Translations under genes and position numbers: made by a program
Assembly: GCA_016193385.1 (NCBI GenBank)
Contig: JACPSF010000410.1
Location: 1-7,877 of the forward strand
DNA: 7,877 nucleotides
Direction: 5' to 3'
DNA from: Deltaproteobacteria bacterium
GTDB lineage: Bacteria > Desulfobacterota_B > Binatia > UBA9968
Notes under the pieces: model-generated
What the model was told of the DNA's origin: nothing
The model's input: the letters and a program-made list of their open reading frames with translations, nothing else
Database searches by the model: none
Shown: piece by piece, positions 365-7,860 of the stretch
Numbering within the stretch: the stretch's first letter is position 1
Layout of the letters: every line of letters begins with the position of its first letter

Positions 365-1462
365 TCAGGCGCCCTTCGGTACCCGGTAGAAGCGCCGTGC
401 ATTGCCGGCCAGAATGGCCGCCTTGTCATCTTCCGTCAGACCCTGATATTCCTGAACCTCCTCGATTTCGTGCATGATGTCCTCGGGACCGATCTCATGG
501 GGGAAATCGCTGGCAAAAAGAAAATGGCTGTTCCCGACCCGCCGGACCTGGTAATCCAGCCCCTCCTCGCCCCCTTCACACCCGACGAAAACGTTGTCTC
601 TCTTCAAATAGTCGCTCGGCTTTTGCTCCATAGAGGGCCCTTTATATCGTCCCCGCATGTTGAGCTCGCCGAAGTAGTGGTGCGATCGGTCCATACGGTC
701 CATCCAAAACGTAACCCAGGCGGCACCGCCTTCGAGAAAGCCGACCCGCAGCCGCGGAAATTCGTCGAACACCCCGTGATACACCATCCCCGAAAAGGCG
801 ATGAGCAAGGAAAGGGGATGGCCCATCCCATGAATCGGAACGAATGTCTCGAAGGTATCGAGCCCCATCCCGTGATGGCAACCGCCATGAACTGCGAGCG
901 CGCAGCCCAATTTCTCCGCCTCCGCATATACGGGCCAATAGGCGCGATGGCCCAGATCGAACGGCAGCCCGCGGGAGGGCAGCATCGCGCCGGGCATGCC
1001 GAGCTCTTTTACCGCGCGGCGCAACTCAAGAACCGCCTCGCTGACATCCTGCATGGGAAGGAGCGCCATCCCCTTGAGCCGCGGGCTGCGCTTCATGTAG
1101 CGGTCATGAATCCAGTTGTTATAAGCCCGCGCCACCGCGCACGCCCAATCGGGATGGGAGATGTTTCCCATGGCCAGCCCGATCGTCGGATAGAGGAAAG
1201 CGTACTCGAACTTGGCCACGTCCAGAAATTCAAGCCATTGCTCGGGCCCGACGCGTTTGCCTCCACCGAAGGCCCTCTCGCTCCGTTTGAAAGTAGCCAG
1301 GTGGTGAAAGTCCAGCGAGGGAAACACGCTACCCAGGACATTACGTATAGGGCCGATGATCCCCCCGTTGGTCCTGCCGCCGCGGTAGGGCTCCTCCAAG
1401 TAGTCAAGGAGGGTCTCATCCTCGATCACATGGCCATCGGCGTCGATAAGTGGCATCGCCAT
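365..1462 (-). CDS. amidohydrolase family 2 (TIM-barrel metal-dependent hydrolase)
   Basis: A 365-residue member of the amidohydrolase-2 family (COG2159; relatives include ACMSD-type decarboxylases). These are cytoplasmic TIM-barrel enzymes that hydrolyse or decarboxylate small ring or carboxylate substrates using a divalent metal. Visible landmarks are the N-terminal D-A-D-G-H strand (Asp7, Asp9, His11), the barrel histidine in AVHGG (His192), HPLSLL with His215, the FDEFPRLRVGFLEGG block (233-246) and the late-barrel aspartate in FASDFPH (Asp319), followed by the usual NARRFYRV ending. The length is normal for the family. I chose the ATG at 1462 because GGAGG lies at 1468-1472, five bases upstream. 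A TTG at 1474 lies upstream of that site, and a second ATG at 1456 is possible. It follows the VOC gene by 30 bases, which suggests an operon. The substrate is unknown. Many such enzymes sit beside VOC proteins in degradation clusters of environmental bacteria. Confidence 0.92.
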   Translation of the reverse strand: MAMPLIDADGHVIEDETLLDYLEEPYRGGRTNGGIIGPIRNVLGSVFPSLDFHHLATFKRSERAFGGGKRVGPEQWLEFLDVAKFEYAFLYPTIGLAMGNISHPDWACAVARAYNNWIHDRYMKRSPRLKGMALLPMQDVSEAVLELRRAVKELGMPGAMLPSRGLPFDLGHRAYWPVYAEAEKLGCALAVHGGCHHGMGLDTFETFVPIHGMGHPLSLLIAFSGMVYHGVFDEFPRLRVGFLEGGAAWVTFWMDRMDRSHHYFGELNMRGRYKGPSMEQKPSDYLKRDNVFVGCEGGEEGLDYQVRRVGNSHFLFASDFPHEIGPEDIMHEIEEVQEYQGLTEDDKAAILAGNARRFYRVPKGA

Positions 1463-1492
1463 AAAAACCTCCAATCTCCCTCACCTCAACCC

Positions 1493-2078: not shown

Positions 2079-2140
2079 AAAAAGGTCCCTGTCTGCGTGC
2101 GGGCACCTGCCGGCGCCCCGGCAGGCGGGCGCACAGGCAG
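2079..2140 (-). terminator. palindrome plus T-run, likely terminator downstream of yajQ
   Basis: Read on the minus strand, a large GC-rich palindrome ends at 2088 and is followed after four bases by five T residues (2079-2083), the shape of an intrinsic terminator for yajQ. The inner stem is perfect: CCTGCCGG at 2106-2113 against CCGGCAGG at 2118-2125 with a CGCC loop. The outer arms, CCTGTCTGC at 2088-2096 and GCACAGGCAG at 2131-2140, pair imperfectly. The same outer arms recur at 3773-3797, so this is also a copy of an interspersed palindromic repeat that may have been co-opted as a terminator. Confidence 0.5.
2088..2140. repeat. interspersed palindromic repeat, long copy
   Basis: The outer ends CCTGTCTGC and GCACAGGCAG match the ends of the shorter copy at 3773-3797. 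This copy has an additional inner palindrome of roughly 28 bases containing the CCTGCCGG / CCGGCAGG stem. A nested palindrome of this type looks like a REP-like or MITE-like short mobile repeat. No transposase is attached. Confidence 0.5.
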
Positions 2141-2195
2141 AGCGGAGGCGTACTGACGTAGTTCGTTGGGCTAATGGGCGACCCCTTTTCTTCTG

Positions 2196-2687
2196 TTACC
2201 GCATCATGTTGATGAACTGCAGGGGGATCTCAAGGTTGGCACTCCTCAGCATCTTGATGATGGCTTGAAGATCATCGATGTTTTTACCGCTAACCCGCAC
2301 TTGAGCTTCCTGGATTGTTGCCTGAACTTTCAAATTTTCGCTCTTGATCATCTTGACGATTTTTCGGGCCATGTCGCCCTCCACACCCTCTTTGATGGCC
2401 AGTTCCCTCTGGATCATTCCATGAGAAGCCATCTGAATCTCTTTGGGATCCAAACTTTTCACATCAACTTTACGTTTAACCAAACTTCCGATTAATGTCT
2501 CCTGAACAGCCTTCAACTTCATCTCATCTTCGGTCACGATATGAATCCTTTTCTCCTTCTTGTCCAGAGTGATTGAAGTTTTCGACTGGCGAAAATCATA
2601 ACGATTGAGAATCTCTTTTCTCGCTATATTTATTGCATTATCGACTTCTTGGAGATCGACACGGCTCACAATATCAAAAGATGCCAT
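2196..2687 (-). CDS. yajQ: YajQ family nucleotide-binding / cyclic-di-GMP-binding protein
   Basis: A 163-residue YajQ-family (UPF0234) protein, normal length for the family. It starts with the characteristic ASFDIVSRVDLQEVDNAINI segment (2-21), continues with RYDFRQSK (29-36), which is highly conserved, and ends LEIPLQFINMMR. The fold is two ferredoxin-like repeats. Family members bind nucleotides or RNA, and a Xanthomonas homologue has been reported to bind cyclic di-GMP and act with a transcription factor in virulence. The role in this organism is unknown. I set the start at the ATG at 2687 because it gives the family N-terminus exactly. Upstream there is a pyrimidine-rich ACTTTCTTTTTTT but no Shine-Dalgarno sequence, which is odd for this window. 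The open frame continues about 67 codons upstream (to 2888) without any YajQ-like sequence, and I treat that as non-coding. Confidence 0.93.
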   Translation of the reverse strand: MASFDIVSRVDLQEVDNAINIARKEILNRYDFRQSKTSITLDKKEKRIHIVTEDEMKLKAVQETLIGSLVKRKVDVKSLDPKEIQMASHGMIQRELAIKEGVEGDMARKIVKMIKSENLKVQATIQEAQVRVSGKNIDDLQAIIKMLRSANLEIPLQFINMMR

Positions 2688-2983
2688 AAAAAAAGAAAGT
2701 GGGGTCAAGTCCGCTCTTGGCTCATCCTTAACCCTGTCGTCTTCGCTCGCACCGGCCCTTATGTTCCTTCTTCTACTTCCCGCACTACTCCACAAAGCAG
2801 AAAGCCCGGCTGGGGAGAGCCAGTCCAAGCAATGATGCAGAATCAAAGACGTGACCGGATCGGATGACCCAGCCGAAGTCAGTCTCACGTAAAATAGGGC
2901 GAAATGATTAAGAAGGCAACAGGCGATAGGCGCAAATCAGAGACTTTTAAACCTACTTTTTCTTGAGCAGAGCCAACGTCTCT
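2688..2983. other. intergenic region upstream of yajQ
   Basis: About 296 bases between the selenoprotein gene and yajQ with no supported gene. The open frames here are short and do not resemble proteins. It contains AAGTGGGGTCAAGTCC at 2696-2711 immediately upstream of yajQ, a string I associate from memory with repeats next to REP-associated transposases. I see no clear terminator for the upstream gene and no clear promoter for yajQ. Confidence 0.45.
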
Positions 2984-3217
2984 TTAAAGGCCCAACAGTT
3001 TTTCAATCCTTTCTTGATCAAAACCTAGCACCGCCTCACCGTCGATCAATGTGACCGGCGTGCTCTGGTAGCCCATGGCAAGGAGTTCTTTAAGCGCCGC
3101 CTGATCCTCACGCACGTTCTTATCGACAAAAGCAATTCCCTTTTGAGAAAGAAACTCTTTCTCCCGATTGCAGGGCCCTCAGCCCGGCTGGCTGAAGATA
3201 ACGACCGTTTTAGCCAT
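2984..3217 (-). CDS. glutaredoxin-like selenoprotein (UGPC active site, in-frame TGA at 3179-3181)
   Basis: Reading the TGA as selenocysteine gives a 77-residue single-domain thioredoxin-fold protein of the glutaredoxin/NrdH type. It has an N-terminal strand AKTVVIFSQPG (2-12), a redox site U13-G-P-C16, helix NREKEFLSQKGI, strand AFVDKNV, the cis-proline motif S-T-P-V (Pro54) and the closing LGFDQERIEKLLG (64-76). The TGA falls exactly where the nucleophilic cysteine of CxxC belongs, and the frame is open and family-like on both sides to a TAA at 2984-2986. The ATG at 3217 has GAGGAG at 3224-3229, six bases upstream. A promoter lies at 3291-3319 and a SECIS-like hairpin at 3132-3171. UxxC thioredoxin-fold selenoproteins are an established class, and they use the selenol for thiol-disulfide exchange or to support peroxidases. 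The alternative is a pseudogene with a TGC-to-TGA mutation, but the hairpin and intact signals argue against it. The electron donor and partner are unknown. Confidence 0.82.
3132..3171 (-). promoter_or_regulatory. candidate bacterial SECIS element inside the selenoprotein gene
   Basis: Starting 15 bases after the UGA, GAGAAAGA (3163-3156) pairs perfectly with TCTTTCTC (3152-3145), closing a three-base GUU loop at 3155-3153 (AGUUU if the top A-U pair opens). A lower stem GCAAU (3171-3167) pairs with AUUGC (3136-3132). The apical loop begins 24 bases downstream of the UGA and starts with G. As I recall the published bacterial SECIS model, it wants a loop 16-37 bases from the UGA, a G in the first two loop positions and an upper stem of 4-16 pairs, so this fits. 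Its role would be to recruit SelB with Sec-tRNA. The fold is hand-drawn. Confidence 0.65.
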
Positions 3218-3290
3218 CTCGCTCTCCTCTCTTGAGACTGATCGTCGCGGCCCAGCGAAGTGTGCCGGCGACTAAACGAGGCTAAACGAA

Positions 3291-3319
3291 AGAGTACCCA
3301 CCCCCGGACCGAGAGTCAA
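3291..3319 (-). promoter_or_regulatory. sigma-70-type promoter for the selenoprotein gene
   Basis: On the minus strand, TTGACT (3314-3319) is followed by a 17-base spacer and TACTCT (3291-3296), a good -35/-10 pair. Transcription would start near 3284 and leave a leader of about 67 bases before the ATG at 3217. No operator is evident. It indicates that this small gene has its own transcript and is not just a dead fragment. Confidence 0.5.
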
Positions 3320-3358
3320 TCCCTTGAGAAACGCTGGTCAAGCTAAGAGGGGTCTTAC

Positions 3359-3751
3359 CTATCTAAGAATTAGTTTCAACTTGGCCGCGAGCCCGGCCCG
3401 CAGGACGGGCGCTACTTGACTCCTGCCCCAGTGGATCCATAGCTTCTTTGTCAACGCTGTTTCGCTGGCCTGCTTCTTGTCGAAGAAGAGGACGTTGTCA
3501 GGAACGACGATCGCCGCGCGACCGTTGATCTTGAGCAAAGTCTTGACGTGCTGGAGAAAGTTGAGCTGCTTGCTCGATGTCGTGGCCCAGAAATCGTCTC
3601 GCTCATAGGTCTCTCTTTCTTTGACGGCTTTACCATCATCGGCCACGATCGTGATGCTGCTCTTCTTCCCGAAAGGCGGATTCGTTAAGACAAGTTCAAA
3701 CCGCTCGCCGGGGTCCGCGGCCAACGAATCTGTTACGACAATCGGCTCGTA
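3359..3751 (-). pseudogene. hsdM: type I restriction-modification methyltransferase (HsdM) remnant
   Basis: A fragment of the N6-adenine methyltransferase subunit of a type I restriction system. It reads EPIVVTDSLAADPGERFELV, then the catalytic NPPFGKKSS motif (the N/D-PP-F/Y motif that holds the target adenine), then SSKQLNFLQHVKTLLKING and VVPDNVLF. A full HsdM is roughly 480-500 residues and only about 105 recognisable ones remain. After VVPDNVLF (junction 3485-3496) the sequence jumps straight to FDKKQASET...TKKLWI. In intact HsdM, as I remember it, that segment follows a second NVLF some 30-35 residues later. After codon 3434 the similarity ends, and the frame continues into unrelated residues up to the stop at 3359. 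The S-adenosylmethionine-binding N-terminus is missing, replaced by a transposase tail and a palindrome. There is no hsdS or hsdR nearby. It is almost certainly non-functional. Confidence 0.85.
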
Positions 3752-7781: not shown

Positions 7782-7860
7782 ATTTTGGATTTTAGATTTG
7801 GGATTTCGGATTTTTGGATTGCGAATCTTGCCTCTAATCTAAAATCGAAAATCCAAAATC
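7782..7860. repeat. AT-rich degenerate tandem and inverted repeat
   Basis: Directly after the stop codon, GGATTT-type units recur about five times (7787-7820). The sequence then inverts: ATTTTGGATTTTAGATT (7783-7799) can pair with the AATCTAAAATC / AAAATCCAAAAT arm at 7836-7859, with an insertion. I associate such GATTTTGGATTTTAGATT spacers with intergenic repeats in several uncultured lineages. It could fold in the transcript, but it is not GC-rich enough for a classical terminator. Confidence 0.5.

Follow-up and report, generated by a model that had tools for sequence, protein, structure and literature searches.

Gene and features at the locus

The window analyzed here, that is, the whole stretch of 7,877 nucleotides of contig JACPSF010000410.1 from a bacterium placed in the class Binatia, contains on its minus strand (3217-2984) a 77-residue frame that is interrupted, upon translation, by a single in-frame TGA and ends with TAA. 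The first-pass annotation had described a 77-codon minus-strand frame broken solely by a TGA at codon 13, with the second Cys and the T-P-V and G-F-D motifs intact, and the translation bears this out, the product carrying U-G-P-C, STPVT, and GFDQ in the claimed order. The following features are assigned to the locus.

2984..3217, minus strand: selenoprotein glutaredoxin gene, 77 codons plus TAA, with ATG at 3217-3215 (assigned from PF00462 and orthologues)
3179..3181, minus strand: TGA codon 13, read as selenocysteine (the U of U-G-P-C; translation, and TGA in 29/29 sequences)
3170..3172, minus strand: TGC codon 16, the resolving cysteine (translation, and Cys in 28/28 distinct coding sequences)
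3145..3163, minus strand: SECIS hairpin of bacterial type (fold, covariation, synonymous constraint, and published model)
3222..3228, minus strand: purine-rich site AGGAGAG of the Shine-Dalgarno type, 5' of the ATG (same kind in 27/28 orthologues)

The Shine-Dalgarno site that had been claimed is recognized as AGGAGAG at 3228-3222, with a comparable site in 27 of the 28 orthologues described below. When the window is included, a GGAG, GAGG, or AGGA word occurs within 20 bases 5' of the start in 28 of 29 sequences, the orthologue at L093 having none of the three in its final 20 bases before the start. The promoter that had been placed 5' of the gene was not recovered, as a sigma-70 scan of 2700-3500, a weak type of scan, gave no site (0.2 expected by chance), and an Rfam scan of the whole window returned no match at gathering thresholds. 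Apart from this promoter, the observation of a TGA-interrupted glutaredoxin frame is confirmed. Within 2984-3217 the table-11 ORF list contains no ORF of at least 60 aa on either strand; thus, ordinary gene calling would skip or truncate the gene. This had been anticipated in the first-pass annotation, and the database copies among the matches listed are mostly pieces that start after the TGA.

Elsewhere in the window, a 121-aa frame on the minus strand (3359-3724) matches an N-6 DNA methylase profile at positions 124-194 of 311 only, and looks like the remnant of a restriction-modification methylase gene. An imperfect inverted repeat (7782-7859; two 24-nt arms that are 88% complementary and separated by 30 nt) is located directly after a transglutaminase-like gene.

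Conservation of the TGA codon and the hairpin

A contig scan of genomes revealed 13 loci, 11 of which derive from close relatives (MAGs titled Deltaproteobacteria, Candidatus Binatia, or Proteobacteria) and have TGA at codon 13 in every case (11/11), while the remaining two, from Uhrbacteria and Arthrobacter, have TGT and TGC at this codon. In the order containing these relatives, a match at E ≤ 1e-10 was obtained in 31 of 35 genomes, with no orthologue match at this threshold in G309, G316, G317, and G319. Full-length orthologues, each with one in-frame TGA, are present in 28 of the 35 genomes; G328 and G329 hold contig-end fragments with TGA, and in G322 the codon is read as N. Among the 30 order genomes in which the codon can be read, none was seen to have a Cys version of the orthologue. 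Together with the window, the aligned full-length sequences have TGA at codon 13 in 29/29 (28 distinct), within the motif U-G-P-C in 21 and U-P-P-C in 8, and the UGA position aligns with Cys13 of the structurally characterized glutaredoxin cGrx1 and with the active-site Cys of the homologues L012 and L013. Because codon 13 is TGA in all 28 full-length orthologues (28/28), its occurrence at this position is beyond chance.

Wider searches gave matches in 52 of 148 genomes at class level (E ≤ 1e-10) and, at phylum level, in 48 of 297 (E ≤ 1e-8), and the homologues outside the order are a mixture of TGA-bearing and TGA-free forms. Within the order, G009 and G002 also contain remoter, stop-free glutaredoxin frames (39-40% identity). 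Contigs C187 and C231 of G001 and contigs C137 and C33 of G006 carry additional glutaredoxin-like frames, each with a single in-frame TGA; two of these TGA-bearing frames are 1.7 kb apart on C187, and some TGA-bearing glutaredoxin-like frames in the order sit within frames of 257-284 aa.

Beginning 15 bases after the TGA, a hairpin (3163-3145) can be formed with a stem of 7-8 bp and an apical loop of GUU (or AGUUU) that lies 22-23 nt beyond the TGA. A published model of bacterial SECIS elements specifies, in a figure legend, a loop of 3-9 nt and a stem of 4-16 bp (PMC13188914, Fig. 2 legend), and further a G among the first two loop nucleotides, a distance of 16-37 nt from the UGA to the loop, and an energy of -7.5 kcal/mol or lower (PMC13188914). 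The window hairpin, with its GUU loop, 8-bp stem, G at the first loop position, and 23-nt spacing, falls within the limits for these four features; its energy is -7.3 kcal/mol for the 19-nt stem and -14.2 kcal/mol for a 48-nt stretch against the limit of -7.5, the stretch boundaries of the published model not being reproduced here. The presence of such a hairpin on its own is not beyond chance. The single-sequence fold was rejected as evidence, as the 48-nt fold scores z = -0.32 against shuffles, and the 19-nt stem has z = -2.14 with 18 of 200 shuffles equally good. Mere presence of a hairpin was likewise rejected, since 4 of the 269 TGAs of the window are followed by one under a loose rule, which about 1.4% of random sequences also satisfy. 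It is conservation together with covariation that constitutes the deciding evidence.

Pairing is kept in 99.5% of the hairpin cells among the orthologues, and in 96.1% across a set of 50 sequences (45 distinct) composed of the window, the orthologues, and those 21 of 30 more distant homologues with a locus that bear a TGA, whose motifs include U-P-Y-C, U-P-F-C, U-G-S-C, and others. In this 50-sequence set, pair 20/36 occurs as A-U (24), C-G (18), and U-A (2), and pair 23/33 as A-U (32), U-A (9), G-C (3), and G-U (1); G27 and U28 are invariant (50/50), and shifting the partner strand by 1-3 columns reduces the pairing to 36-78%. Two of five covariation measures (pairs changed on both sides and further pair types) do not exceed the shuffles, and the shuffle control ignores relatedness; for these reasons, weight is put on the occurrence of several pair types and on the slide control. 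Within the order, a single event may account for the swap at pair 23/33.

At the codon level, the mean synonymous identity of codons 19-25 is 0.83, versus 0.48 for the other 61 scored codons (28 distinct sequences), and these codons rank at the top of the 67 seven-codon windows. Residue 20 is strictly coupled with the codon for Leu23, Lys occurring with CTT in 19 sequences and Val with CTA in 9, with no mixtures. A stem pair that changes from A-U to U-A requires just this coupling, whereas selection on the protein provides no explanation for the silent change at Leu23. The covariation, including this coupling of Lys/Val with a silent Leu codon, makes the hairpin a good test case for SECIS function.

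These data bear directly on the view that the gene is a pseudogene or a product of sequencing error, i.e., a Cys glutaredoxin in which TGC or TGT has been turned into TGA by mutation or misreading. A single base separates TGC from TGA, the Cys homologues L012 and L013 exist, and a database relative (P0012, 64% identical) also has Cys. Nevertheless, TGA is found in 28/28 full-length, independent orthologues with the remaining frame open and conserved, the hairpin is under constraint at the nucleotide level, and a read error at 3179-3181 would need to have recurred in 28 other genomes; we therefore reject this view as extremely improbable and regard the TGA as a genuine in-frame codon. The first-pass annotation had also reckoned with close homologues that have Cys instead and lack a hairpin. 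Each of the 28 full-length orthologues keeps both the TGA and the hairpin, although among the matches listed P0012 is a Cys-containing relative.

Among the more distant homologues, L042 (genome G062; 1528-1578) is a Cys (TGT) glutaredoxin that the tree places as the sister of three Sec homologues. Of the SECIS stem, it retains the six inner pairs and has lost the outer two; it is likely to represent a Sec-to-Cys reversion with a decaying hairpin. A weaker hairpin remnant is seen in another Cys homologue, L041. The homologue tree is weakly resolved (20/56 inner branches starred), and the main claim does not rest on it.

Selenocysteine machinery in relatives and database copies

For the window gene, the Sec machinery would be that read from its sister genomes. 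Of the first 11 genomes, tRNA-Sec is over the cut-off in 7, selB in 7, selA in 10, and selD in 8; the corresponding numbers for 14 control genomes are 5 (loose tRNA run, RF01852), 2, 1, and 2. ARAGORN identified a tRNA-SeC with the TCA anticodon at 8/8 of the fetched over-cut-off places, which are distributed over 7 genomes; a further tRNA-Sec place over the cut-off (G010, 47.3 bits) lies outside this set. In a strict run, tRNA-Sec was detected in 25 of the 35 order genomes and missed in 10, and among the 14 controls it was detected only in E. coli and M. jannaschii; selA is present in 32 of the 35 order genomes, and among the controls only in E. coli. The gene is present in G006 with tRNA-Sec, selA, selB, and selD all below the cut-off, and in G008 only selA of the four is over it; both assemblies have contig numbers in the hundreds. 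In two genomes, G314 and G315, a single contig (4.2 Mb and 4.1 Mb, respectively) carries the gene together with tRNA-Sec and selA. All 9 over-cut-off selD matches (from 8 of the 11 relative genomes) have one in-frame TGA each, and SelD of the relatives looks to be a selenoprotein itself.

The search of protein databases with the 77-residue product, which had been proposed in the first-pass annotation, gave 450 proteins at E ≤ 0.001, the best 120 of which were examined. Of these best 120 of 450, 109 lack G-P-C and are mostly 47-60-aa pieces starting after the TGA. The 11 G-P-C-bearing proteins have W in 9, R in 1 (P0009, with R-G-P-C), and C in 1 (P0012, the sole Cys among the best 120 of 450); the R of P0009 may be due to mutation, to a read error, or to a genuine change. 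P0037, a 50-aa NCBI entry, is probably the L001 locus in truncated form. The gene is a clear case in which automatic annotation truncates or skips a conserved coding sequence across a bacterial order.

The W found before G-P-C in 9 of the 11 such proteins among the best 120 of 450 is what a table-4 call gives, and it might be taken at face value, with TGA coding for Trp, as it does in translation table 4, to yield W-G-P-C. However, the genomes of the order carry tRNA-Sec with the TCA anticodon, and TGA serves as the terminator of ordinary genes, ending both the amidohydrolase-like gene of the window (365-1474) and the L008 orthologue. A Trp code also leaves the SECIS-type hairpin unexplained, and to our knowledge Trp cannot act as a nucleophile. 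We regard decoding as Trp as scarcely credible and reject it, and consider that the W at the Sec position would instead reflect table-4 gene calling. The reading of the gene as a glutaredoxin-like selenoprotein, as advanced in the first-pass annotation, is supported by the TGA of the orthologues, the hairpin, and the Sec machinery in relatives. Computation has established the UGA-containing frame and its conservation, the covariation of a SECIS-type hairpin, the sister-genome Sec machinery, and the predicted fold; from these we infer that Sec is inserted at codon 13 in the cell.

Family, predicted fold, and possible redox partners

The product scores 47.7 bits (E 1.8e-12) on PF00462 (glutaredoxin), for which the cut-off is 22.9, and a sequence search of the PDB ranks 7c10 (cGrx1 of Clostridium oremlandii) first, at E 4.1e-18, with residues 1-77 aligned to 1-77 without a gap. 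Five AlphaFold models have pLDDT values of 85.9, 84.4, 80.3, 53.1, and 50.9, two of them thus being poor; the best model (pTM 0.70, from an input alignment of 23 rows) again finds 7c10 as the top PDB fold match (TM 0.92, rmsd 1.0, 45% identity). On the basis of the profile score and the predicted thioredoxin-type fold, the protein is a PF00462/cGrx1-like member. Among the NCBIfam profiles, the best matches are to the YruB, NrdH, and UXX-star families (TIGR02196, TIGR02194, NF041212, NF041114, NF041211, and NF047338); however, the window protein scores under every curated cut-off, as it does for all 20 listed models. NrdH (TIGR02194) gives 53.0 bits versus 85.75, and the protein is outside TIGR02196 GlrX_YruB (70.1 versus 88.55 bits) and NF041212 Uxx_star (41.5 versus 66 bits) as these are delimited. 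UXX-star family 1 has the motif UxxT (as given in PMC13188914), in contrast to U-G-P-C in the window protein.

Glutaredoxin selenoproteins have been included in surveys since 2005 (PMC1088965, PMC1794560, PMC9312934), one of which showed a glutaredoxin SECIS and reported truncated or missed selenoprotein ORFs (PMC1088965). The surveyed proteins share PF00462 and the UxxC motif with the window protein (PMC1088965, PMC1794560, PMC9312934, PMC13188914), which is therefore a member of the known glutaredoxin selenoproteins, a kind already known. The first-pass annotation had likewise assigned it to a known class; the very short length that it remarked on is nothing unusual, given the gap-free 1-77 alignment with cGrx1. 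Figures and supplements apart, UGPC is absent from the text of PMC13188914 and PMC1088965, and Binatia from the text of PMC9312934 and PMC13188914; among the literature matches listed, none has selenoproteins of Binatia as its title subject. The lineage of the window gene looks to be one not listed in these surveys, as far as their running text goes.

The closest structurally known relative, cGrx1 from C. oremlandii OhILAs (PDB 7c10, 7c12, and 7c13), is like the window protein a native Sec glutaredoxin using positions 13 and 16, but has a U/C-P-x-C site instead of U-G-P-C. As described for cGrx1, the Sec of the native selenoprotein was replaced by Cys13 for the structure, the site being U(or C)PXC, occupied in the crystal by Cys13 and Cys16; of these two positions, the first attacks and the second resolves, and glutathione is the reductant (PMC7642778). 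cGrx1 has been proposed to reduce a selenoprotein MsrA (PMC7642778). In the order studied here, 53 MsrA matches in 31 of 35 genomes (three of them partial) include none with an in-frame TGA, and this 0/53 gives no support to a tandem-Sec partnership with MsrA, which we reject.

By analogy to cGrx1, a mechanism may be proposed in which SelB carrying Sec-tRNA(UCA) would bind the hairpin just 3' of UGA codon 13, where selenocysteine would be inserted in place of a stop. Sec13 would then act as the attacking nucleophile of U-G-P-C, Cys16 would resolve the bond formed with the substrate, and the oxidized protein would be recycled, most likely by glutathione in the U-G-P-C branch. We are highly confident in this overall reading, i.e., a small cGrx1/YruB-like Sec glutaredoxin with hairpin-directed UGA decoding, Sec13/Cys16 chemistry, and likely recycling by glutathione.

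Recoding of UGA depends in principle on selenium, and the substrate and reductant of the glutaredoxin are proposals only, so that the gene might alternatively be a regulatory read-through element or a sensor of selenium status that contains Sec without being a redox enzyme. We consider this very improbable, as the 77-residue protein is conserved beyond the UGA with Cys16, TPV, and GFD kept, and as a glutaredoxin fold is predicted, both of which argue for a redox-active Sec glutaredoxin.

To compare gene neighborhoods, the ORFs of the window were set beside those of 22 relative loci from 28 genomes, half of these loci (11) having flanks of up to 5 kb and the other 11 flanks of 1.5 kb. A divergent M28 peptidase-like ORF lies upstream in 17 of the 22 relative loci, as judged from ORF clusters and in agreement with blastp from the L010 copy; the latter, the only copy scanned with profiles, is an M28 peptidase with a PDZ domain. 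This ORF, the usual next neighbor in relatives, is missing from the window. A glutathione S-transferase ORF is located upstream on the opposite strand within 5 kb in 9 of the 22 loci, and the gene is found in 9/9 of the loci whose upstream DNA exceeds 2.7 kb (4 of the 9 profile-scanned). The divergent copies lie at 2624-3229 in L002, 2415-3014 in L005, 2598-3203 in L007, and 2102-2707 (minus) in L011, and in five more loci. Downstream neighbors vary among the relatives and include dienelactone hydrolase-like and short-chain dehydrogenase genes. In the window, tblastn detected neither the glutathione S-transferase nor the M28 peptidase; hence, the earlier statement that the gene has no adjoining redox partner stands for the window but not for the relatives, in view of the glutathione S-transferase within 5 kb in all nine loci with sufficient upstream DNA.

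Over its cut-off, gshB (TIGR01380) is present in 18 of the 35 order genomes, namely, in 16 of 20 U-G-P-C genomes, in none of 8 U-P-P-C genomes, and in 2 without the gene, where the 8 U-P-P-C genomes constitute one branch and gshB is the only route to glutathione covered. Thioredoxin reductase is over the cut-off in 26 of the 35, and all but one of the 8 U-P-P-C genomes (7/8) are among these. Because of this gshB distribution, the nearby glutathione S-transferase in relatives, and the reductant of cGrx1, the reductant of the U-G-P-C branch to which the window gene belongs would most likely be glutathione. We tentatively speculate, with rather low confidence, that the Sec glutaredoxin lineage, which would be order-wide and has shown no Cys form in the 30 readable order genomes, may have split into a U-G-P-C branch dependent on glutathione and a U-P-P-C branch dependent on thioredoxin reductase or another thiol, neither serving a selenoprotein MsrA. 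The U-P-P-C sub-branch comprises G307, G308, and G310-G315 (L077, L079-L082, L084, L087, and L088), in which Tyr22 and the hairpin are kept.
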